A stretch of 55,317 nucleotides of DNA from Dehalococcoidia bacterium (GTDB lineage: Bacteria; Chloroflexota; Dehalococcoidia; SM23-28-2; HRBIN24): NCBI GenBank assembly GCA_032249735.1, contig JAVVHA010000015.1, forward strand, positions 1-55,317, read 5' to 3'. The notes under the pieces are model-generated. The model was not told where the DNA came from, searched no databases, and saw nothing but the letters and a program-made list of their open reading frames with translations. Shown piece by piece: positions 19,321 through 30,014 of this stretch. Positions within the stretch are counted from its first letter, which is position 1. Each line of letters opens with the position of its first letter. Position numbers and translations under genes: made by a program.

Positions 19321-19707
19321 TTAGTCCCCCCTTTCGATGAACACGGTGCGCTGACGGCATATCAGTTCGCTCTGTTCGTCTTTGAACTCGCTCACCACCA
19401 CGGCGAAGCGAAGGTTGCCCTTGGTATAGGCGTCGTCGACGTATACCCTGATGCGCACCCTCTCCCCAGGCTGGAACGGGCGAGCCCATTCATAGGACTG
19501 GGTCCCCAACAGGGCCTTCCTGAGGTCGATGTTCAAGGCGTCCACCAGGGCCCGCTCGCCAGCTATCGCTGGGCCAAAGTACGACACTAGGCTAGCTGTC
19601 TCCTTACTCGTCGAGCTGCCGATAGCTGCGGCCAGGGTCTCCATTTGCCGGGACGAGAGGACCTCCTCAACTTCGAACAGCACTTTCCCTTTCACAGATT
19701 CGTCCAT
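19321..19707 (-). CDS. FAS1-like/MaoC N-terminal hotdog partner
   Basis: The 128-residue protein starts MDESVKGKVLFEVEEVLSSR with AAAGGAGGTCAGGAT before the ATG at 19707. It has the FAS1-like dehydratase features: SYEWARPFQPGERVRIRVYVDD and an LICRQRTVFIERG end, but no D-x-N-P-x-H motif, so it is the non-catalytic partner of the MaoC protein that follows. It overlaps the end of paaD by 16 bases, implying translational coupling. Confidence 0.8.
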   Translation of the reverse strand: MDESVKGKVLFEVEEVLSSRQMETLAAAIGSSTSKETASLVSYFGPAIAGERALVDALNIDLRKALLGTQSYEWARPFQPGERVRIRVYVDDAYTKGNLRFAVVVSEFKDEQSELICRQRTVFIERGD

Positions 19708-20234
19708 ATCCTGACCTCCTTTTGAAGAGAATGTCTCTCGGTGCCCTCCTCCAACCATCGCATCTCTTCGAATGGGTTGTGGCACGAGTTACAGTACCAT
19801 ATAGCCCGACATACCGAGGCCCCGAAGGGCGACTCTTGGCGCACATTCACCGAGTCACAGTAGGGACAACGCAGCCATCGGCGGCCCTCGCTATCTAGCT
19901 CCGGAATCGCGATCCCGTACTCACGCAAGCGACGTCGGCCCTCTGGACTGATAAGCCCCGTGGACCAGGCGGCAGCGTCCAGCCAGCGACAGCGTATATC
20001 ACGATCGCCAAAGGCGACCTTCAAGCGCTTTTCCACAAGCAAGCGGATGAGCTCGCGGGCGGGGCACCCCGCCCGGGTAGGGATAAGCTCCACCTCTATG
20101 ACTCCGTCCGCCGCCGTCCCACAGTTCGCCACCAGCCCCAGGTCGACGATGCTCACCGGAGCCTCAGGATCCTCCACATCACGCAGCACCGCCAGAATCT
20201 GCTCGCTGGAGAGTGGTTCGTTATCGGCACCCAT
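19692..20234 (-). CDS. paaD: Phenylacetyl-CoA epoxidase accessory subunit PaaD
   Basis: A 180-residue MIP18/DUF59-type protein. The N-terminal domain has LRDVEDPEAPVSIVDLGLV and PTRAGCPARELI; the C-terminal zinc module has RCPYCDSVNV and WYCNSCHNPFEE, two C-x2-C pairs exactly as in PaaD. It helps assemble the iron centre of the oxygenase. ATG 20234 follows GGGGAGGGCGGGTCT. Contiguous with paaC upstream. The last ~20 residues extend past the usual end. Confidence 0.9.
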   Translation of the reverse strand: MGADNEPLSSEQILAVLRDVEDPEAPVSIVDLGLVANCGTAADGVIEVELIPTRAGCPARELIRLLVEKRLKVAFGDRDIRCRWLDAAAWSTGLISPEGRRRLREYGIAIPELDSEGRRWLRCPYCDSVNVRQESPFGASVCRAIWYCNSCHNPFEEMRWLEEGTERHSLQKEVRIWTNL

Positions 20235-20250
20235 AGACCCGCCCTCCCCT

Positions 20251-20997
20251 TCAGCCCCAGGTAATGGCTTCCGGATCTGACCGGTAGATGCGCTGCTGCT
20301 CACGCACGAACTCCCAGAAGGACGAGACATCTGGCCCAGGCGTGGGCTCGCTAGCCATCTCAGATAGCAAACTGTCGGCGTGCGGGAGCGATAACGGCGC
20401 CAAGACCTTAGCTACGGACTCAGCCCACTGGCGGCGGAGAGTGGCCGGATCCCACCACGTTGGAGCATCCTTTACCCAGAACGTATCAGTCACGTAAGGG
20501 AGCAATAGCTCTATGGCGGACCCCAGTCGCTGGCGTGCCTCAGGGTGACGACCAAGGGAGGTCATCCACCAGCGCCAGTAACGTCGGTGTTCCTCTTCCT
20601 CTCGTTCCATGATAGCGACGATGCCTGCTAAATCTTCCACCTCCGATAGTCGCCCCACCCGCACGCTTTCCGCTTCCTCGTACAAAAAGGCCCTGACGAC
20701 GAAGGCCGCCCAGTCGTCCAGAAGTTCCAGCTTGAGCAGGCTAGAGTTTCGGAAATCTGAGGGTTCCCGCTCGAAGAAGTACCGCTCCTTGTCTCGCCGT
20801 CGCTCGACATCTGGGCCCGGGAATAAAAGGCCCAGCAATAGCTCGGCATGGCCGAATTCGTCTTGACCGATGCTGGCCATGGCAAGGATCTTCTCCAGAT
20901 CTGGGCTAGCCCCACAGGAGCGGCCCAGCAAATAGGTCGCGAAGAAGATCTCGTCGTCCGCCCAGGCACGCACGATGGGCTCGAGGTCTGCTCTCAT
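20251..20997 (-). CDS. paaC: Phenylacetyl-CoA epoxidase structural subunit PaaC
   Basis: A 248-residue ferritin-like protein: IVRAWADDEIFFATYLLGR, IGQDEFGHAELLLGLL and EREEEEHRRYWRWW keep the four-helix-bundle motif positions of the PaaA/PaaC family. PaaC is the structural partner of the catalytic PaaA. The ATG lies 9 bases after paaB. Its size matches E. coli PaaC (248). Confidence 0.92.
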   Translation of the reverse strand: MRADLEPIVRAWADDEIFFATYLLGRSCGASPDLEKILAMASIGQDEFGHAELLLGLLFPGPDVERRRDKERYFFEREPSDFRNSSLLKLELLDDWAAFVVRAFLYEEAESVRVGRLSEVEDLAGIVAIMEREEEEHRRYWRWWMTSLGRHPEARQRLGSAIELLLPYVTDTFWVKDAPTWWDPATLRRQWAESVAKVLAPLSLPHADSLLSEMASEPTPGPDVSSFWEFVREQQRIYRSDPEAITWG

Positions 20998-21006
20998 GGT
21001 ACCGCC

Positions 21007-21300
21007 TCACCCCGTGGACAACTTGGGTGGCGTATAGCCAGCGGCCGCCAGCTTACGGACGTAGAACGATGGCCGCCGAAACTCTGTCTCCTGGATGCGC
21101 CTTCGGTCCCACTCGGCATCAGGGATCATCTCCGCTATAAACCGACGGTCTACAACCCACAGCCGCTCGAAAGTGTCGAGACGGAGGAAGATGTGGTATG
21201 CCGCTTCTAGAGCCGACTCAGGATCGGGTGCCCGCACGCTCCCTACGTGCTGCAATGGCTCCCCCTTCCTGAATCTCACAAATGCTTCGTATTCTTGCAC
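21007..21300 (-). CDS. paaB: Phenylacetyl-CoA epoxidase subunit PaaB
   Basis: The 97-residue protein has the family pattern EYEAFVRFRKGEPLQHVGSVRAPDPESAL and LRLDTFERLWVVDRRFI. PaaB bridges PaaAC dimers in the complex. It lies 12 bases after paaA and keeps the canonical A-B-C-D order. Confidence 0.92.
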   Translation of the reverse strand: MQEYEAFVRFRKGEPLQHVGSVRAPDPESALEAAYHIFLRLDTFERLWVVDRRFIAEMIPDAEWDRRRIQETEFRRPSFYVRKLAAAGYTPPKLSTG

Positions 21301-21312
21301 CGCTTACACCCC

Positions 21313-22257
21313 CTAAGCCGCCAAGGGCAGCTCCTTTAGAGCTTTCAGCGCCCATTGGTCATTCTCGTAGCTTCTCTTGAACTCCTCCACGTACCACTCT
21401 TCAAGCGGCGTTCGCTGGCGTATGAGGTGGAAAAATCGGTCCCAGTCCAGAGGCGAGTAGCGCCACTCTCCTGTATCCGGGTCACGCTCCAGGTTCGGGT
21501 CGGGCTCCACCCCCAAGCTGCGGACGATGGGGTACAGCATGCTGATCCATTGCTGCCGCAACGTCTCGTTTTCATCCACCTTCACCCGCCATTTGCGCCA
21601 GTCCCTGCCTTTGGTAAGGTGCTCAGGAGGCCCGAACTGATAGATGGCGATATGCCACCACTTAGCGAGCCCCTCCTGCACCTGAGAGCGCTGACGTGGG
21701 GTACCCTCGGTCACCAGCTCGTGGCAAAGTTGAAGGGCATGATAGAAATGGAATGACTCTTCCCTCATGATCTTTTTCATCACGCGACAATAAGGCAAAT
21801 AGCTACCGTGAGCCAAAGAACGGAACTGAACGACGGCGGCAGAATTGGTTAACAAGAGGAAGGCGGGCAGCTCGCCCCAGCTATCTACGGGGAACTTGAA
21901 CGGGTAATTAAGGTGTATACGGCCTTCTAAGTAATCGCTGAACAGTTCCTCGCGGCTCTTACCAAGATCTTCCAGCATCCGCGCGGTGATGTGGCAGTGG
22001 CCTACCTCGTCCTGGATCTTGCCGAGGAGAGGGCGCCGACGCCATAAGGTGGGCGCCATGTACATCCATCTCCGGAAAAGAGGCATGGGCACGACCTCAA
22101 GGATAGCTTGGAAGCTCGCTATCTTTATGACTTCGTTCTTGTACTCTTCTGGCATCCAATCCCCTGCCTCTACTTTGCCGCCGGCCTGGATGTAGGCCAC
22201 AAACCCATCCACGTCCTCCATGGAGGGAGGGAGCCTATGAACCGGTTCACCCATCAT
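21313..22257 (-). CDS. paaA: Phenylacetyl-CoA epoxidase catalytic subunit PaaA
   Basis: The 314-residue protein matches PaaA in length (E. coli 309) and in the motifs KIQDEVGHCHITARML and REESFHFYHAL, the E-x2-H pairs of its diiron site. YPFKFPVDSWGELPAFLLLTNSAAV is also typical. It would insert oxygen into the aromatic ring of a CoA thioester, giving the 1,2-epoxide. Two adjacent ATGs (22257, 22254) are possible. No PaaE reductase, PaaG isomerase or PaaZ is in the window, so electrons and the next steps come from elsewhere. Confidence 0.92.
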   Translation of the reverse strand: MMGEPVHRLPPSMEDVDGFVAYIQAGGKVEAGDWMPEEYKNEVIKIASFQAILEVVPMPLFRRWMYMAPTLWRRRPLLGKIQDEVGHCHITARMLEDLGKSREELFSDYLEGRIHLNYPFKFPVDSWGELPAFLLLTNSAAVVQFRSLAHGSYLPYCRVMKKIMREESFHFYHALQLCHELVTEGTPRQRSQVQEGLAKWWHIAIYQFGPPEHLTKGRDWRKWRVKVDENETLRQQWISMLYPIVRSLGVEPDPNLERDPDTGEWRYSPLDWDRFFHLIRQRTPLEEWYVEEFKRSYENDQWALKALKELPLAA

Positions 22258-22275
22258 TACACCCCCTGTTTGTAA

Positions 22276-22287
22276 CCATTCGGTCTA
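22276..22287. promoter_or_regulatory. Possible regulator site in the paaA leader
   Basis: CCATTCGGTCTA lies about 20 bases from paaA; ACC-N4-GGT (22275-22284) is a short imperfect palindrome and ATTCG recurs 12 bases on (22278 and 22290). It lies between the start of transcription and the ATG, where a TetR-type repressor such as the one in this cluster could bind. Weak evidence. Confidence 0.25.
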
Positions 22288-22303
22288 CTATTCGTTTGAA
22301 AAC

Positions 22304-22331
22304 ATTATAGAGCGGCTACCCAGTTTGTCAA
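22304..22331 (-). promoter_or_regulatory. Perfect-hexamer promoter of the paa operon
   Basis: TTGACA (22326-22331), 16 bases, TATAAT (22304-22309). The leader is about 40 bases. Upstream, 22332-22614 has no gene that I can support; it holds the perfect inverted repeat at 22477-22493. Confidence 0.8.
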
Positions 22332-22476
22332 CCCCGTAAGGGAAGGCTTTTACCACTCCAGGCATGCTATAGGTGGTGGGGTGACGGGAGAGGGTGGTGG
22401 CCAGGGAAGGCAACACTGCCTCGACCATTGGCAAGGTAAGGGTTTTAGGGTCTGTGGTTTAGGGCCCTCTCTTCGC

Positions 22477-22493
22477 CGAGACTTGGTGTCTCG
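22477..22493. repeat. Perfect 6-bp inverted repeat with 5-base loop
   Basis: CGAGAC-TTGGT-GTCTCG lies between the SDR stop and the paa promoter. No T-tract follows on either strand, so it is not a classic terminator; it might be a protein site or a mild hairpin. Confidence 0.35.
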
Positions 22494-22614
22494 CCGTTCC
22501 CAGGGGCTGGGGTTGCATGATAGCCACTTGCCTGTCCGTCGCAGGTCAACAATACCCGAGCACCCGAGGGGGCTACCCAATGGCCTGTCACGTTTTGGGT
22601 GGTGGGGCACCTTC

Positions 22615-23415
22615 TCACATCATGGTATATCCACCGCTGACGGATAGGGTCTGGCCCGTGATGAAGCTGGCAGCGTCGGAGGCCAGGAAGACCACGGCGT
22701 TGGCCACCTCCTGGGCAGTCCCCAGCCGCCGCATGGGGTAGGCGCGGGCGATGCGCTCCCGCATCTCAGGGCTGGTCCAAGCGTCCAGCCCAGAGCCTGC
22801 CCGCCACATGCTCTGGGACCCTACTTCCTCGGCGCTTTGGGGGATGGTGGTGCCAGGGCAGACGCAGTTGACCCGCACGTTGTAGCGGCCATACTCCCGC
22901 GCCAGGGCCTTGGTGAGGGAGATGATGCCCCCCTTGCATGCCGAATACACCGCCTCCCGGTACTCGCCCATGCGCCCAGCATCGGAGCCGATGTTGACGA
23001 TGGCCCCTCCACCGCGCTCTATCATGTGGGGAAGGACAGCCCGGCACCCATAGATGACCGACCAGAGGTTGATGCGCACCTTCTTCTCCATATCCTCCCA
23101 CGTGTCGTCCAGGAAGAGGCAAAGGCGGTCCCAGCCTACGTTGTTGACCAACGCGTGCACACCGCCCAGCTCCTCTATGGCCCGCTGCACCATGGCCTCC
23201 ACCTGGGCCCGGTCGGTGACGTCGCAATGGATGGGAAGAGCCACTTCCGCCCCCAGGTCCTGGGCCTGATGGGCCACCCGCTCCGCTCCCTGGTCGTCGA
23301 TCTCCGCTATGGCGATGCGCGCCCCCTCACGGGCGAAGGTGAGGACGATGGCGCGCCCGATGTTGGATGCTCCGCCGGTAACGATGACCCCCTTGCCCTT
23401 AAGCCCCAGATCCAT
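22615..23415 (-). CDS. Short-chain dehydrogenase/reductase, BadH-like
   Basis: A classical SDR of 266 residues: VTGGASNIGRAI nucleotide loop, CDVTDRAQV, NNVGW, the catalytic YSACKGG (Y-x3-K) and Ser in NIGSDAG. The Asp after the second strand (AEIDDQG) favours NAD. It follows an acyl-CoA dehydrogenase and a crotonase in one unit, the order expected for dehydrogenation, hydration and oxidation of a ring acyl-CoA, as by 2-hydroxycyclohexanecarboxyl-CoA dehydrogenase. The specific substrate is inference. Confidence 0.87.
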   Translation of the reverse strand: MDLGLKGKGVIVTGGASNIGRAIVLTFAREGARIAIAEIDDQGAERVAHQAQDLGAEVALPIHCDVTDRAQVEAMVQRAIEELGGVHALVNNVGWDRLCLFLDDTWEDMEKKVRINLWSVIYGCRAVLPHMIERGGGAIVNIGSDAGRMGEYREAVYSACKGGIISLTKALAREYGRYNVRVNCVCPGTTIPQSAEEVGSQSMWRAGSGLDAWTSPEMRERIARAYPMRRLGTAQEVANAVVFLASDAASFITGQTLSVSGGYTMM

Positions 23416-23428
23416 GGCTTCACCCCCT

Positions 23429-24208
23429 TTAGAACTGCGGCGTCCGCTTCTCCAGGAAGGCTTGCACCCCTCGCATGGCGTGGTCAGAGGAGGCCACGTA
23501 TTCCAGGAAGGTCATCTCCTCCGCTCGGATGGCCTCCCGCAGGGGGAGGTCCCTACCGCGACGCACCGCTCGCTTGATGGCACCTATGGCCTGGCGGCTC
23601 TTGGGCCGCAGCTGGGAGAGGAGCTCCTCTAAGGCCCCGTCCAGCTCCGCCGCCGGCACCGCCCGGTAGGCCAGCCCCCACGCCTCCGCCTCCCGCCCCG
23701 AGAGCCAGCGCCCCGTCAGCAACAGGTCCATGGCCCGGAAGTGGCCCAAGCGACGGTATAGACGTTGCGTGTTGCCTCCACCGGGCATGAGGGCAAAGTT
23801 GATGTGCTGGTCGCCGATGCGGGCGTCCTCGGCAGCCAAGATGAAGTCGCAACACATGGCCAGCTCCAATCCCCCTGCCAGACAGTGGCCATGGACGACG
23901 GCCACGGTGGCTGCCGGCAGGGCCTCCAGAGCGATGAACACATCGTTCAGTCGCTCTATGTAGGTGGTAAGTAGTCGCAGGTCCTGGAAGGCCTGGCTGA
24001 TAAACTTGAGATCGGCCCCGCTGCAGAAGGAGCGCCCCGCCCCTCTGATGACCAGGGCCTTAATGCCCTCATCCTCCCTTACCTCTTCCACCACCTGGCC
24101 CATCTCCTCCACCAGCTCGGGGCTGAGGGAGTTAAGGGCGTGAGGGCGGTTGAGGGTCAGGTATCCCACCCCTTCCTTCTTCTCCCATAGGATGTTCTGG
24201 TAACCCAT
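23429..24208 (-). CDS. Enoyl-CoA hydratase/isomerase family protein with one altered catalytic position
   Basis: A 259-residue crotonase-fold protein with NRPHALNSLS, FCSGADLKFI and HCLAGGLELAMCCD. Glu115 matches the first catalytic Glu of rat crotonase, but the second (FGQPEI in rat) is replaced: IGDQHINFALMPGG has His135 at that position. So it may not be a simple hydratase. It lies between the acyl-CoA dehydrogenase and the SDR, 10-14 bases from each. Confidence 0.86.
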   Translation of the reverse strand: MGYQNILWEKKEGVGYLTLNRPHALNSLSPELVEEMGQVVEEVREDEGIKALVIRGAGRSFCSGADLKFISQAFQDLRLLTTYIERLNDVFIALEALPAATVAVVHGHCLAGGLELAMCCDFILAAEDARIGDQHINFALMPGGGNTQRLYRRLGHFRAMDLLLTGRWLSGREAEAWGLAYRAVPAAELDGALEELLSQLRPKSRQAIGAIKRAVRRGRDLPLREAIRAEEMTFLEYVASSDHAMRGVQAFLEKRTPQF

Positions 24209-24217
24209 GTCTCCCCC

Positions 24218-25363
24218 CTAATATGGGAGATATTCACGGCCCAGGACCTCGCGGGCGATGATGAGCTTCATGATCTCCGGTGTGCCGTCTCCTATTTCCA
24301 GGCCCAGCACATCTCGCAGCCTCTGCTCCAGGGGCAGGTCCTGGCTGTAGCCGTAGTGGCCGTGGAGGATGATGCACGCCCGGATGGCGTCCACCGCCAC
24401 CTGGGGGGCCATCCACTTGGCCATGGCCATCTCCTTGGTGTGAGGCAGGCCTTGGTCGCGCAGCCAGAGGGCCTTATAGCAAAGGAGTCTGGCCGCCTCG
24501 AGACGGGTCAGGTGCTCGGCGATCTGGAACGAGACCCCCTCGAACTTGGCGATGGGACGCCCAAAGGCCCGCCTCTGCTTCACGTACTCGATGGTCTCCT
24601 CTAGGGACTGCTGGGCAGCCCCCAGGCAGCAGAGGCCAATGATGGCCCGGTTGAAGTCGAAGGCCGTCATGGCCTGCCGGAATCCCTCTCCCTCAGCACC
24701 GATGCGATAGGAGGCAGGCACCCTTACCTGGTCGAAGAAGAGGGACCCCCGCTGAGTGAGCTTCTCCCCAGGGCTGTGGTATACGGAACGGGATACCCCC
24801 GGCAGGTCAAGGGGGACGATGAAGCTGGAGATGCCCCGCGCCCCCTCGCCACCGGTGCGGGCGAAGACCACGGCCACATCAGCCATGCCGGCGAAGGTGA
24901 TGCTGCTCTTCTCCCCATCCAAGACGTAAAAGTCCCCGTCCCGTGTGGCCCGTGTGCGCAGGTGGGCCGCATCGGACCCCACCTCCGGCTCGGTGAGGGC
25001 AAAGGCGAACACCTTTTCCCCCCGCACCAAGGGCGGGAACCATTCCTCCTGTACCCCCTCATCGGCCATCTTCAGCAGCTCGGCCCAGATGGCGGTGAGC
25101 TGGATGAAAAGGGTGCAGTTGAAATCTCCCCGCCCTATCTCCTCCGCGGCGATGCCGCATTGGACATAGGAGGCCTCCATACCCCCATAGCGGGCGGGGG
25201 CCCGCAGGCCTAGGAGGCCCACCTCGGCCAGGGCCTTCACCTCCTCCCGTGGGAAGGGCTCCCCACGGTCCCAACGGGCATAGTTGGGAAGGAGATGGCG
25301 CAAGGCGAAGCGGCGTAAGACGCCTCTAAAGCTCTCTTCCTCCGGACTGAAGGCGAACTCCAT
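24218..25363 (-). CDS. Acyl-CoA dehydrogenase with Asp at the catalytic-base position
   Basis: A 381-residue protein: MEFAFSPEEESFRGVLRRF start, FALTEPEVGSDAAHLRTRA in the middle, and LEIGDGTPEIMKLIIARE at the end. Asp359 in IGDGT stands where medium-chain dehydrogenase has its catalytic Glu (YEGT). From memory, Asp at this place is reported for cyclohexanecarboxyl-CoA dehydrogenases of benzoate degraders, which would suit this cluster. The ATG at 25363 has no clear ribosome site. First gene of a three-gene unit. Confidence 0.88.
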   Translation of the reverse strand: MEFAFSPEEESFRGVLRRFALRHLLPNYARWDRGEPFPREEVKALAEVGLLGLRAPARYGGMEASYVQCGIAAEEIGRGDFNCTLFIQLTAIWAELLKMADEGVQEEWFPPLVRGEKVFAFALTEPEVGSDAAHLRTRATRDGDFYVLDGEKSSITFAGMADVAVVFARTGGEGARGISSFIVPLDLPGVSRSVYHSPGEKLTQRGSLFFDQVRVPASYRIGAEGEGFRQAMTAFDFNRAIIGLCCLGAAQQSLEETIEYVKQRRAFGRPIAKFEGVSFQIAEHLTRLEAARLLCYKALWLRDQGLPHTKEMAMAKWMAPQVAVDAIRACIILHGHYGYSQDLPLEQRLRDVLGLEIGDGTPEIMKLIIAREVLGREYLPY

Positions 25364-25407
25364 AGCTGAAGAAAGGGGCGCCCCGTCTCCCCGATTTGCT
25401 CGCCCAT

Positions 25408-25436
25408 AGTTAAGCAACCATCCTTACCGCTGTCAA
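25408..25436 (-). promoter_or_regulatory. Promoter of the dehydrogenase-crotonase-SDR unit
   Basis: TTGACA (25431-25436), 17 bases, TTAACT (25408-25413); TAACTA one base further is an alternative -10. It lies between the amidase stop and the dehydrogenase start. Confidence 0.55.
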
Positions 25437-25452: not shown

Positions 25453-26853
25453 TCAGCGGGGATGGGTCGGAGGGAGGCGCCGGTGCCAGGAAGTGGCCTG
25501 CTGATAAGCGTGGGCCGCCCTGAGGACGGTCCCCTCCTCCCACCACCGCCCCACCAGTTGCAGGCCCACAGGCAGGCCGGCGCTGGTGAAACCACAGGGG
25601 ACCGATATGGCTGGCTGGCCTGTCAGATTGAAGGGATTGGTGTTGCGAATGAGGGTGAGGGTAGCCTCCAGGTCCCCCTCCTCTATGCGGGGCGCCACTA
25701 TAGGCGTGGTAGGAGTGGCCAGAAGGTCCACCTCCCTGAACACCTCCTTCCAGGCAGCCACGATGGCCTTTCTCGCCCGTTGGGCCTGGACGTACTGGAC
25801 AGCCGGCATGAGGGCACCCATCTCCAGGCGCAGACGCACATCCTCACCATAGGCCTCGGGACGTTGACGGAGGCGAGGGAGGTGATAGGCCGCGGCCTCC
25901 GGCAGCATGATGGAGACCACAGCGTGAGGTATCACGTCCACATACGGCAGGGACACCTCCCGCACCTGGGCGCCCAGGGCGGCCAGGACGTCCACCGCCT
26001 GGCGCACCAAGTTCACCACCTCCCCGTCCACCCCCTCCCAGAAGTGTTCACGGGGCAGGCCGATGCGCAACCCCCGCACTCCCTCCTCCAGCTGATGGCT
26101 GTATCGGGGCACGGGGAAGGGGGCGCAGGATGCATCCCTCTCGTCGGGCCCACCGATAACCTCCAGCATCAAAGCGCAGTCCTCGGCCGTGCGGCACATG
26201 GGCCCCACGTGGTCCAGGGACCAGGAGAGGGGCACCACGCCATGCAGGCTCACCCGTCCGTAGGTGGGCTTAAGGCCAGTGATGCCGCATAGGGAGGAAG
26301 GGATGCGGATGGAGCCTCCCGTATCGGTCCCCAAAGCGGCCAAGCACTCGCCAACGGCCACGGCCGCCCCCGAGCCGCCCGAGGATCCCCCGGCCACCCG
26401 CGATAAGTCCCAAGGGTTACGCACCGGGCCAAAGTGGGGGTTCTTGCTGGTGGCCCCCAAGGCGAACTCGTGGAGGTTGAGCTTGCCCACCACCACCGCC
26501 CCAGCCTGTCGCAGGCGGGCTACAACGGTGGCGTCCTCCTCGGATATGTGGTGGGCCAACAACGGCGAGCCGGCCGTGGTAGGGAAGCCCTTGGTGGAGA
26601 ACAGGTCTTTGACCCCCACAGGGATGCCATGCAAGGGGCTCCGGAACTCCCCCCGCGCCGCCTCCTCCTCCAAAAGGCGGGCGGCGGTCATCGCTTCCTC
26701 CGCCATGACGGTGATGAAAGCGTTAACTTGGGGGTCAAGGGTGCTTATGCGAGCTAGGCACGCCTCTGTCAGCTCCGTAGGCGATATCTCCCGCCTGCGC
26801 ATGAGGCGGGACGCCTCAGCCAAGGTAAGGCCCGTCAGCTCCTGCCCTTTCAC
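25453..26853 (-). CDS. Amidase-signature hydrolase (GatA/AtzE-like)
   Basis: A 466-residue amidase-signature enzyme with the Ser-Ser-Lys triad in IPVGVKDLF, GGSSGGSGAAVA and GTDTGGSIRIP. GTG 26853 is chosen because it overlaps the stop of the preceding 57-residue gene (GTGA) and gives the normal start GQELTGLTLAEAS; the frame is open further up but reads as low-complexity shadow. The AtzG-like partner argues for an AtzE/biuret-type or other amide hydrolase rather than tRNA-dependent GatA, which has GatB/GatC. No GatB is nearby. Cytoplasmic; substrate unknown. Confidence 0.87.
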   Translation of the reverse strand: MKGQELTGLTLAEASRLMRRREISPTELTEACLARISTLDPQVNAFITVMAEEAMTAARLLEEEAARGEFRSPLHGIPVGVKDLFSTKGFPTTAGSPLLAHHISEEDATVVARLRQAGAVVVGKLNLHEFALGATSKNPHFGPVRNPWDLSRVAGGSSGGSGAAVAVGECLAALGTDTGGSIRIPSSLCGITGLKPTYGRVSLHGVVPLSWSLDHVGPMCRTAEDCALMLEVIGGPDERDASCAPFPVPRYSHQLEEGVRGLRIGLPREHFWEGVDGEVVNLVRQAVDVLAALGAQVREVSLPYVDVIPHAVVSIMLPEAAAYHLPRLRQRPEAYGEDVRLRLEMGALMPAVQYVQAQRARKAIVAAWKEVFREVDLLATPTTPIVAPRIEEGDLEATLTLIRNTNPFNLTGQPAISVPCGFTSAGLPVGLQLVGRWWEEGTVLRAAHAYQQATSWHRRLPPTHPR

Positions 26854-27023
26854 GTCGTGGCTGGGGCCTTGAAAACGGCCGCCGGTCCCTCTTCCCCTAG
26901 GGGCAGGGAGAGGAGGATGTCCCGTCCCAGCCAAAGCATAGGCAGGGAGGCAGCAAGGAGCGGGGCCCTCTCTTGGGGCAGGGGCAAGCCCGCCGCCTGG
27001 GCCAAGGCCCGCACCTCCTCCAT
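26850..27023 (-). CDS. Small AtzG/GatC-like amidase partner subunit
   Basis: This 57-residue protein is easily missed. It starts MEEVRALAQAAGLPLPQER, continues LAASLPMLWLGRDILLSLPL and ends AAVFKAP, the pattern of AtzG-like chaperone subunits (helix, short linker, x-V-F-x-x/P tail). The ATG at 27023 overlaps the TGA of the JAMM gene by one base (TGATG), and its own stop overlaps the amidase GTG, so all three are translationally coupled. It probably stabilises the amidase by wrapping around it as GatC does GatA. Confidence 0.72.
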   Translation of the reverse strand: MEEVRALAQAAGLPLPQERAPLLAASLPMLWLGRDILLSLPLGEEGPAAVFKAPATT

Positions 27024-27427
27024 CACTCCTCCACCTCCATCTCCACCTCCTGCACCTGCCCCTCACGGATACGGAAGGCCCGCACCACCGGCCGCTGCGG
27101 GTCCTTCAGGGAGATGACCAGGTAGTACGTCTCTGGCCAGAAGGCCAGGCGCACGTCGGTGGGCGATGGCACGGCCTCGGAGGCGGTATGGGAGTGGTAT
27201 ATGGCCAAGAACTCCCACCCCTTCTCCTCGCACTCCCGGTAGACGCGGAACAGGTCCTGGGGGTCCACCTGATACCGATAAGGGCTCTGCTCGGCGTTGC
27301 GGCACTTGTAAAGCTTCACCGCCCGCCCATCGTGTCCAGCCACGATGCCACAACACTCGATGGGGGCCTCAGCCTGGGCGTGGGCTATCATCTCCTCCAG
27401 GAAGGAGCGAGGAAGGCGCAGGGCCAT
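27023..27427 (-). CDS. JAMM/MPN+ metalloprotease (Mov34/M67 family)
   Basis: The 134-residue protein carries the full JAMM set: Glu in PIECCGIVAG, then YHSHTASEAVPSPTD, which fits H-x-H-x7-S-x2-D exactly. Stand-alone bacterial members remove C-terminal peptides or act on sulfur-carrier/ubiquitin-like proteins or cysteine derivatives. Here no ubiquitin-like or ThiS-like gene is nearby; instead it is coupled to an amidase and its small subunit. The role is therefore open. ATG 27427 lies about 45 bases after lgt. Confidence 0.88.
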   Translation of the reverse strand: MALRLPRSFLEEMIAHAQAEAPIECCGIVAGHDGRAVKLYKCRNAEQSPYRYQVDPQDLFRVYRECEEKGWEFLAIYHSHTASEAVPSPTDVRLAFWPETYYLVISLKDPQRPVVRAFRIREGQVQEVEMEVEE

Positions 27428-27472: not shown

Positions 27473-28342
27473 TCAAGCCTCGCTGCGCTTGGCCAAGCGA
27501 CGCCGCTCCAGGCGCAACATGCGCCTTCTCTCCGCTCGCGGCCGCGGCCTCTCCTGTCGCAGCCACAGATAGAGCAGGGCGGGGAGGCTTATGGCCAGCA
27601 CGGCGATGGCGATGATCTGGGCCGTACGCAGCCCCGCCCACACGATGTCATCCAACCGTAGGAAGCTGATGCCCAGGCGCATGGCCGAATAGAGGGCGGC
27701 CCAGGCGAAGAAGGTGATCCCAGGCCTAGCTCGCCGGAATATCCATATCAGGACGAGGAAGATGGCCAGGTCGCTCAGCATCTCATAGGCCACCGCCGGA
27801 TGCTGCACATATTGCGGCCCGAAGCGTGCGAAGCTGGGGCTCTCGGGGTGAGTGTAGCGCACACCCCAGGGAAGGCTTGTGGGCTCGGCGAAGTGTTCGC
27901 CATTGATGATATCGCCCACCCTGCCTATGGCCATGCCCACGATGGCCCCCAGGGAGGCCACGTCCGCCCCTCGCAGCTTGTTGGGGATGCGGGCCCAGAA
28001 GCCGTAGGCCAGGGCTCCCAAGGTGCCGCCGATGAGAGCTCCATATATGGAGATGCCCCCTGCGTTGATGGCGAAGATATCCAGGGGGTCATCCCGGAAG
28101 GACTCCAGGTGCTCCAGCACGTAGAGGGCCCGCGCCCCCACGATCCCCCCCACCACCAGGGCCACCGCCGTGTTGTATATCTGGTCTTCAGTGTAACCTT
28201 CCCGGCGGGCGAAGCGGGCGGCCACCGTCACCCCGATAACCACCCCTAAGGCAGCTAGAATCCCGTGCCAGGATATCTCCAGGCCCCCTATGTGGAAGGG
28301 GACGGGGTCTATAGGGATTCGGATGGATAAGAGCTCAATCAT
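27473..28342 (-). CDS. lgt: Prolipoprotein diacylglyceryl transferase
   Basis: The 289-residue polytopic membrane protein has ISWHGILAALGVVIG at the start and the signature AIGRVGDIINGEHFAEPTSLPWG, close to the Lgt consensus G-R-x-G-N-F-x-N-x-E. It transfers diacylglycerol to the lipobox Cys of the lipoproteins seen in this window. ATG 28342 follows GGAGGTGGAAGAAG and overlaps the end of the ResB gene. The C-terminus is a basic tail. Confidence 0.92.
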   Translation of the reverse strand: MIELLSIRIPIDPVPFHIGGLEISWHGILAALGVVIGVTVAARFARREGYTEDQIYNTAVALVVGGIVGARALYVLEHLESFRDDPLDIFAINAGGISIYGALIGGTLGALAYGFWARIPNKLRGADVASLGAIVGMAIGRVGDIINGEHFAEPTSLPWGVRYTHPESPSFARFGPQYVQHPAVAYEMLSDLAIFLVLIWIFRRARPGITFFAWAALYSAMRLGISFLRLDDIVWAGLRTAQIIAIAVLAISLPALLYLWLRQERPRPRAERRRMLRLERRRLAKRSEA

Positions 28343-30014
28343 CTTCTTCCACCTCCTGCCGGAGGGAGACGCCAGCACGTCGGAGCAGGGGCCCCAGCTC
28401 CCGCCTGAGGTCCATGCCCGTCCCCCCTTGCTCCACTATACATACCTCTTCTCCTTTGAGGCGAGCCCACAACCGGCGCCGGGGCAACCAGAAGGTGAAC
28501 ACAAGGCTCAGGACGAGAAGGGCAGCCCCAGCCCACACCAAGTGGACGGAGGGGTCGCGACGCACCTCGATGCCCACGAACGCCCTCTGGCCCAAGAAGA
28601 TGTATTCATATTGGCCTACGCGGGCCACCTCCCCGCCCTGTAGCGCAATGGGCCTATCGCCCAACCCCAGGAGGATGAGGATGGGCGGCCCCTCCCCCCC
28701 TACCACGGCCACCCTGCCCCCTTGGGAGACGTTGCCCGTGCCATAGGCCACATTGCTCATCTGCAGGAGGAGCCCCTCCCCCTGCCCAAGAGGGGTGGGC
28801 ATATCGGCCACCACCGCCGCTGGGGCCTTCTGGATGGCCACCAGTTCCCAGCGCACCCCTCCTAGGGAAGCGCCCTCCCCAGGGGCTAAGGCCACGGCCC
28901 GGGAGAGGTCATGGGCATCGGCGATGAGAAGGGTGGCCTCCCCTTTGCCCTCGCGGAGGACCAGCGCCCAGTCCCTCCCAGCCACAGAGAGGAGGGCCAG
29001 GGAAGAGGTGAGGCCCTGGCCGGTGGCGATGGGATTACCCAGGGCTACCGCCCCTTCATGGGCCAGGCGCCCCGTCCCCTCCTCCCAAGCCCTTAGATAA
29101 GGAGCGGGGCGCTGCATCTGGAGAGCCACCGTCTCATGATAGATGGCGCGGCCCGAGGAGGCCTCCTTCACCACCACCTCGGCACCGAAACCGAAGTAGG
29201 CTGCCAAATGGAAGCGGTATCCCCCATATTGGCAGGGGGAGTTGACGGTGACGCGGCAGCGGGCCACCTCCTCCCCCCGCCGGAAGATGGCCAGCTCCGC
29301 AGCATACTGCAGGGGCAGGCCCTGGGCATCGAAGCGGGCCCATGCCCTCGTCACCTCCACCTCCATCTGCCGCGGATGGGCGGGGGTGGGGAACACAGGC
29401 CTCACCTGCCCTTCAGCCACCATGAGGGGGATGGAGAAGGCCTCCGCCCGCCCCACGGCCGCTGCCAGCACCAGTACCACCACTGCCACGTGGGCCAAAA
29501 GGGTGCCAGCGTGGGCCCAGGGAAAACGGTCGGCAAAGAGATAGGTGACGGCCTCATCCCCTAGCACCTCCACCCGGTAGAGGCGGCGCCGCAGGCCTTG
29601 AACCAGCACCCTCACATCGGCGTGTCCCCGTCCCTCCAACCTCTGAGGAGCCGTATCGAAATAGACGTCAGGAGGCCACTTACGAGGCCGGAAGATAAAG
29701 GCATAAAGACCCGGCAGACGGCTGAAGGAGTAGGCCAGGAGGGAGGCCACCATGAGCCCCAGACCAGCGGCGAACCAGGGGGCACGGAAGACGTCCAAAA
29801 GGCCCAGGCGCCACAACCAAGGGGTGGCCGGCCCCAGCCTCCTTTCCTGCTCCCCCAACCATGCTCGCACCGATGCAGGGTCTCCTGCCGCCCAAGGGGG
29901 TAACTGGGGCAACACCACCCCCACTAAGGCTATAGCGGCCATCACGGCGGTGATGATGACTGCCCACCGCGGCCCCACCAGGAAAGAGAAAAGGTCCCGC
30001 CCCCAGCGACGCAC
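28335..30014 (-). CDS. resB: ResB-like (Ccs1) cytochrome c maturation protein
   Basis: About 559 residues from GTG 30014, which lies 8 bases from a GGGAGG site. It begins with SFLVGPRWAVIITAVMAAIALVGVVLPQ and has four membrane segments (two near the N-terminus, one about residue 170, one near the C-terminus LVWAGAALLVLSLVFTF) with a large extracytoplasmic domain, the ResB layout. With CcsA it carries heme outward and attaches it to apocytochrome c (System II). Overlaps the lgt start. Confidence 0.88.
   Translation of the reverse strand: MRRWGRDLFSFLVGPRWAVIITAVMAAIALVGVVLPQLPPWAAGDPASVRAWLGEQERRLGPATPWLWRLGLLDVFRAPWFAAGLGLMVASLLAYSFSRLPGLYAFIFRPRKWPPDVYFDTAPQRLEGRGHADVRVLVQGLRRRLYRVEVLGDEAVTYLFADRFPWAHAGTLLAHVAVVVLVLAAAVGRAEAFSIPLMVAEGQVRPVFPTPAHPRQMEVEVTRAWARFDAQGLPLQYAAELAIFRRGEEVARCRVTVNSPCQYGGYRFHLAAYFGFGAEVVVKEASSGRAIYHETVALQMQRPAPYLRAWEEGTGRLAHEGAVALGNPIATGQGLTSSLALLSVAGRDWALVLREGKGEATLLIADAHDLSRAVALAPGEGASLGGVRWELVAIQKAPAAVVADMPTPLGQGEGLLLQMSNVAYGTGNVSQGGRVAVVGGEGPPILILLGLGDRPIALQGGEVARVGQYEYIFLGQRAFVGIEVRRDPSVHLVWAGAALLVLSLVFTFWLPRRRLWARLKGEEVCIVEQGGTGMDLRRELGPLLRRAGVSLRQEVEEDD

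Follow-up and report, generated by a model that had tools for sequence, protein, structure and literature searches.

With reasonable confidence, we explain the M67/JAMM hydrolase gene of this DNA as encoding a hydrolase of the sulfur-carrier cysteine pathway that has been relocated beside an independent two-subunit amidase. The locus consists of known kinds of protein joined by a family-specific rearrangement. The DNA analysed (the window, 55,317 nucleotides in all) is contig C15 of genome G000, a 1.73 Mb assembly in 28 contigs with an estimated completeness of about 99%.

Three genes follow one another on the minus strand, namely the M67/JAMM (Prok-JAB) hydrolase at 27427–27023 (134 aa), a GatC/AtzG-like small subunit at 27023–26850 (57 aa) and an amidase-signature amidase at 26853–25453 (466 aa, GTG start). 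The prolipoprotein diacylglyceryl transferase gene lgt, identified by PF01790 (2.9e-51) and synteny, lies upstream of M67 at 27473–28378, also on the minus strand. The stop codon of M67 and the start of the small ORF share one base (TGATG), and the four bases GTGA are common to the small-ORF stop (which ends at 26850) and the GTG start of the amidase, so that the three ORFs and the one-base and four-base overlaps on which the original prediction was built are all present. Judged by their sequences these are genuine genes, since the M67 and amidase products match Pfam families and homologs of the small ORF precede the orthologous amidase in relatives.

Against Prok-JAB (PF14464), with its cut-off of 25 bits, the M67 protein scores 86.9 bits (1.2e-24), and its JAMM motif E...HxHx7SxxD is complete (Glu24, His78, His80, Ser88 and Asp91). 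The solved structures nearest to it by sequence are the uncharacterized protein 2kks (3.2e-27) and JAMM1 (5lda, 1.7e-14). Its gene context in relatives indicates that it is probably of the Mec+ type (a CysO-cysteine hydrolase), as a CysO-type carrier, an E1 and a cysteine synthase accompany it there; in G000 these partners are found on a separate contig. A second M67 that might serve the cys cluster of G000 was sought, and the sole other JAB match in this genome is a RadC-like ORF.

Of 61 related Dehalococcoidia genomes, 53 carry an ortholog of M67, as do 89 of the 149 genomes of the class that are at least 92% complete. We surveyed up to about 6 kb on each side of the gene in 40 genomes and the window (41 neighbourhoods), using the G000 proteins as queries; opposite-strand ORFs from a simple caller are partly spurious in GC-rich DNA, and the neighbourhood counts given here rest on later protein searches and intervals. 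CysM, CysK, a CysO-type carrier and/or a ThiS:MoeB (carrier:E1) fusion are contained in 29 of these neighbourhoods, and the other 12 have none of these cys genes. The fullest arrangement around M67 in relatives is Rrf2-CysK-ThiS:MoeB-CysO-CysM-M67, and in f4 and f5, two families of the same order as the window, M67 closes the cys cluster. Folate-synthesis genes (DHPS-like by sequence inspection) come after M67 in families f2 and f3, where the best amidase homolog is located elsewhere, at about 326 kb from M67 in the single contig of G004. Elsewhere in the class, M67 neighbourhoods lack this amidase. A second M67 copy, in three pieces, was seen in G015 (C40:90836–91703, in L035) and may reflect a degenerating duplicate or a misassembly.

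The cys genes of G000 itself are on contig C12, in the order ThrC-ThiS1-Grx-Rrf2-CysK-ThiS:MoeB-CysO-CysM (Grx being a glutaredoxin-like gene), and M67 is absent from the cluster. Essentially the same cluster, again lacking M67, is found in G001, the other member of the window's genus, and in G002 and G003 of its sister genus, in all of which M67 adjoins lgt and the amidase. M67 is therefore detached from the cys cluster in the family of G000–G003, which is also the only one that keeps lgt beside M67 by synteny. The fact that the G000 M67 does not stand beside cys genes counts against our explanation, as do the 12 neighbourhoods that have none of these genes. The ThiS:MoeB fusion is the only clear E1 in G000. 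The carriers ThiS1 and CysO, which end in AGGGA and AGGDVGG, exceed the NCBIfam cut-offs for both SAMP1 and MoaD_arch, with SAMP1 the best NCBIfam name for the carriers.

Two further features of this cluster were observed. In the E1 fusion of G000 (locus L128 of C12, 5161–6249), which has orthologs in relatives, the N-terminal ThiS domain is joined via Gly-Gly and then QVLTPEQ, and this fused domain may be either cut free or working in place. The pairing of a threonine synthase-like PLP gene with a Gly-Gly carrier of its own, ThiS1, recurs across the class (L128, 7973–9767; also L129–L131, L045, L058, L193, L194, L196, L198, L199, L152 and L154). By analogy with CysM/CysO, this pair could represent a carrier-dependent route from O-phosphohomoserine.

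The components seen in the relatives resemble known systems. Mec+ of Mycobacterium tuberculosis frees cysteine from a CysO-cysteine adduct (PMC3227635), and the JAMM hydrolase, Gly-Gly carrier, E1 and cysteine synthase of this Mec+/CysO/CysM/MoeZ pathway are all combined in the relatives' operon. The Dehalococcoidia differ from M. tuberculosis in that the E1 has a fused ThiS, most carriers continue past Gly-Gly and M67 is detached in the family of G000–G003. The relatives' cluster also has the same components as operon type 4c of Iyer et al. 2006 (ThiS/MoaD, E1, JAB and cysteine synthase; Chloroflexus included), although the E1 of type 4c is fused to a rhodanese domain rather than to an N-terminal ThiS domain, and that work mentions no amidase (PMC1779556).

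We infer the enzymatic roles as follows. The ThiS:MoeB fusion, as one E1, would activate and thiocarboxylate the carrier at its terminal Gly-Gly, and the CysM-type synthase would transfer the sulfur, still attached to the carrier, to an activated serine. M67 would then cut the carrier-cysteine bond, giving cysteine and free carrier, and would probably also strip the residues that are encoded past the Gly-Gly of the carriers.

Such residues are common. In most CysO-type carriers of these genomes Gly-Gly is followed by a tail of 1–8 residues that varies in sequence, and an internal Gly-Gly is present in the ThiS domain of the E1 fusion. All four standalone carriers examined in G000 are extended, with GGGA, GGDVGG, GGGHVLPGHP and an 18-residue run. 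Tails specific to the cysteine carriers can be discarded as an idea, given that the MoaD-like carrier and the ThiS-like carrier on C18 of G000 also continue past Gly-Gly. We set 11 M67-positive genomes, made up of G000 and 10 members of other families in the class, against 9 carrier-bearing genomes that are M67-negative. One or more carriers that continue beyond Gly-Gly, among them four MoaD:MoaE-like fusions in the positive set, are present in 11/11 of the former and 1/9 of the latter (Fisher p of 7e-5, with kinship ignored). Counted by carrier, with one uncertain carrier set aside, the values are 19/33 and 1/14 (p of 0.0014); in this comparison the positive genomes are richer in carriers, the loci are best matches and the negative genomes have no CysO, and with MoaD-like carriers alone p is 0.15. 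The correlation suggests that M67 also trims carriers, a prediction in line with the published JAMM cleavage of MoaD-MoaE in Deinococcus (PMC8832034) and with the cutting of mycobacterial MoaX, whose protease had yet to be identified in 2015 (PMC4326299).

The tails bear as well on a different account, which seems unlikely to us, in which M67 is mainly a general carrier maturase or desampylase that trims tailed CysO, MoaD and ThiS, perhaps also splits ThiS:E1 and removes carriers from proteins, and releases cysteine to a minor extent or not at all. The tailed carriers of G000 and the internal Gly-Gly of its E1 agree with this. So do the four MoaD:MoaE-like fusions with an internal Gly-Gly (L203, L206, L217 and L218, in G103, G162, G175 and G038), which are confined to the M67-positive genomes of the panel. 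The JAMM protein DRJAMM of Deinococcus radiodurans cleaves MoaD-MoaE (PMC8832034). DRJAMM is alike in being a bacterial JAMM that acts after the carrier Gly-Gly, as is predicted for M67, and in the MoaD:MoaE-like fusions of M67-positive Dehalococcoidia, whereas the G000 MoaD-like carrier has a short tail and is not a MoaE fusion. The best NCBIfam names also point this way, desampylase for M67 and SAMP1 for the carriers, but the 81.8 bits of M67 do not reach the curated cut-off of 130 bits for the haloarchaeal desampylase (NF041370). Moreover, the chief gene association of M67 is with cysteine synthase genes, and several carriers in M67-positive genomes stop exactly at Gly-Gly, which also counts against our own explanation.

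The other two genes of the locus form, in our explanation, a separate enzyme. The amidase matches PF01425 at 449 bits (2.2e-134) and has a complete Lys-cisSer-Ser triad, Lys82-Ser157-Ser181, spaced as in the GatA triad. The catalytic residues are intact in both enzymes, and the identities first given to the JAMM hydrolase and the amidase are borne out. The solved structures nearest to the amidase by sequence are GatA 4wj3 (5.9e-110) and biuret hydrolase 6c62 (5.7e-81). Its scores are below the curated cut-offs for AtzE (380 vs. 425.75 bits for TIGR02715 and 397 vs. 461 bits for NF006631) and for GatA (388 vs. 481 bits for TIGR00132). It is not the GatA of G000, as a GatC-GatA pair sits on C12 and a GatA stretch of about 20 residues is missing from the window amidase. 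Downstream of the amidase, at 19692–25417, are acyl-CoA dehydrogenase, enoyl-CoA hydratase, SDR, PaaA, PaaB, PaaC and PaaD-like genes, a catabolic cluster of the aromatic-CoA type that in G001 is not beside the amidase.

The 57-aa protein gave no match to Pfam or NCBIfam, the AtzG-like Pfam model (PF13318) matches neither it nor its homologs, and a PDB search with the small-subunit profile returned nothing significant. A profile of 16 homologs nevertheless aligns with a Dehalococcoidia GatC profile in hhalign (91%, E of 9e-7, 51 collinear columns), and a profile restricted to sequences of the order scores 25.8 against GatC, compared with a maximum of 15.1 among 150 column shuffles. Across the order the amidase gene is preceded by homologs of 57–70 residues, frequently with this four-base overlap, which rules out a chance ORF; in at least 15 related genomes the homolog is the gene immediately ahead of the orthologous amidase. 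Of the AtzG/GatC-like character first proposed, the GatC-type assignment stands at the profile level and the AtzG one fails the Pfam model. By profile comparison, then, the protein is a GatC-type subunit, and it probably works like AtzG with its amidase, a partnership backed by gene order and overlap.

In the known pairs AtzG-AtzE (1-carboxybiuret hydrolase) and GatCA, from which AtzG/AtzE is derived, a small GatC-type subunit is likewise encoded directly before an amidase-signature amidase, and AtzE is insoluble without AtzG (PMC6219798). The window differs from them in the Pfam and cut-off results above and in that no atz genes were noted nearby. The coupling of small subunit and amidase is old and conserved, and the pair would act as an independent amidohydrolase like GatC/AtzG-AtzE on some small amide.

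The association of M67 with the amidase is of another kind. The two lie within 3 kb of each other in 16 of 16 assessable genomes, from three families of the order. The one-base overlap of M67 and the small ORF is limited to G000 and G001, the sister genus (G002 and G003) has a 1-nt gap, and in families other than theirs the distance is at least about 250 bases. In f4 and f5 the small subunit-amidase pair is 0.6–2.7 kb beyond M67, and in 10 of 12 genomes opposite-strand membrane-protein genes (one type being Yip1, 2.4e-7) stand between; these are absent in G021 and, by spacing, in G019. Because of the intervening opposite-strand genes, M67 and the amidase are usually not co-transcribed in these sister families, and their proximity across three families is mostly synteny and not an operon. 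Co-translation of M67 with the small subunit and amidase is likely in the window's genus. The lack of any conserved association with M67, which the original prediction named as its refutation, was thus not what we found, although the association that is conserved is mostly one of position.

According to the original prediction, the M67 enzyme could belong to an amide-processing pathway with no known carrier protein. Spelled out for all three proteins, M67 would cut an isopeptide or a C-terminal amide bond and the amidase would take the product, with no carrier involved. The near-zero spacing or overlap in the four genomes of the window's family, and the neighbourhood kept in three families, agree with this reading, and given that proximity there may be some functional tie between M67 and the amidase. 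We nonetheless regard the reading as very improbable. Opposite-strand genes mostly intervene in the sister families, M67 neighbourhoods across the rest of the class lack this amidase, and the carrier-free part fails, as likely carriers and an E1 are present on another contig of G000 and class-wide M67 sits with them, not with the amidase. That M67 was captured into the amidase operon in this family, where it would free a carrier-bound amide or amino-acid adduct for the GatC-like/amidase pair to deamidate in a carrier-linked amide pathway, is likewise highly doubtful.

For the relocated cysteine-pathway hydrolase that we favour, the simplest history is that M67 moved together with the amidase unit and the intervening genes were lost, a direction that we infer because the cys arrangement is the more widespread. 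The move would have placed the two behind lgt and apart from the cys cluster in the ancestor of the family, and the young overlap would have arisen when the genes separating M67 from the amidase unit downstream of it disappeared.

An overlap in one genome can thus mimic a functional triad though it is the product of lineage-specific relocation and gene loss. In Dehalococcoidia, one M67 and one ThiS:E1 fusion may serve several carriers, with M67 responsible for maturing the carrier C-termini as well as for product release, and such a multi-carrier M67, if true, would extend the published roles of DRJAMM and Mec+.
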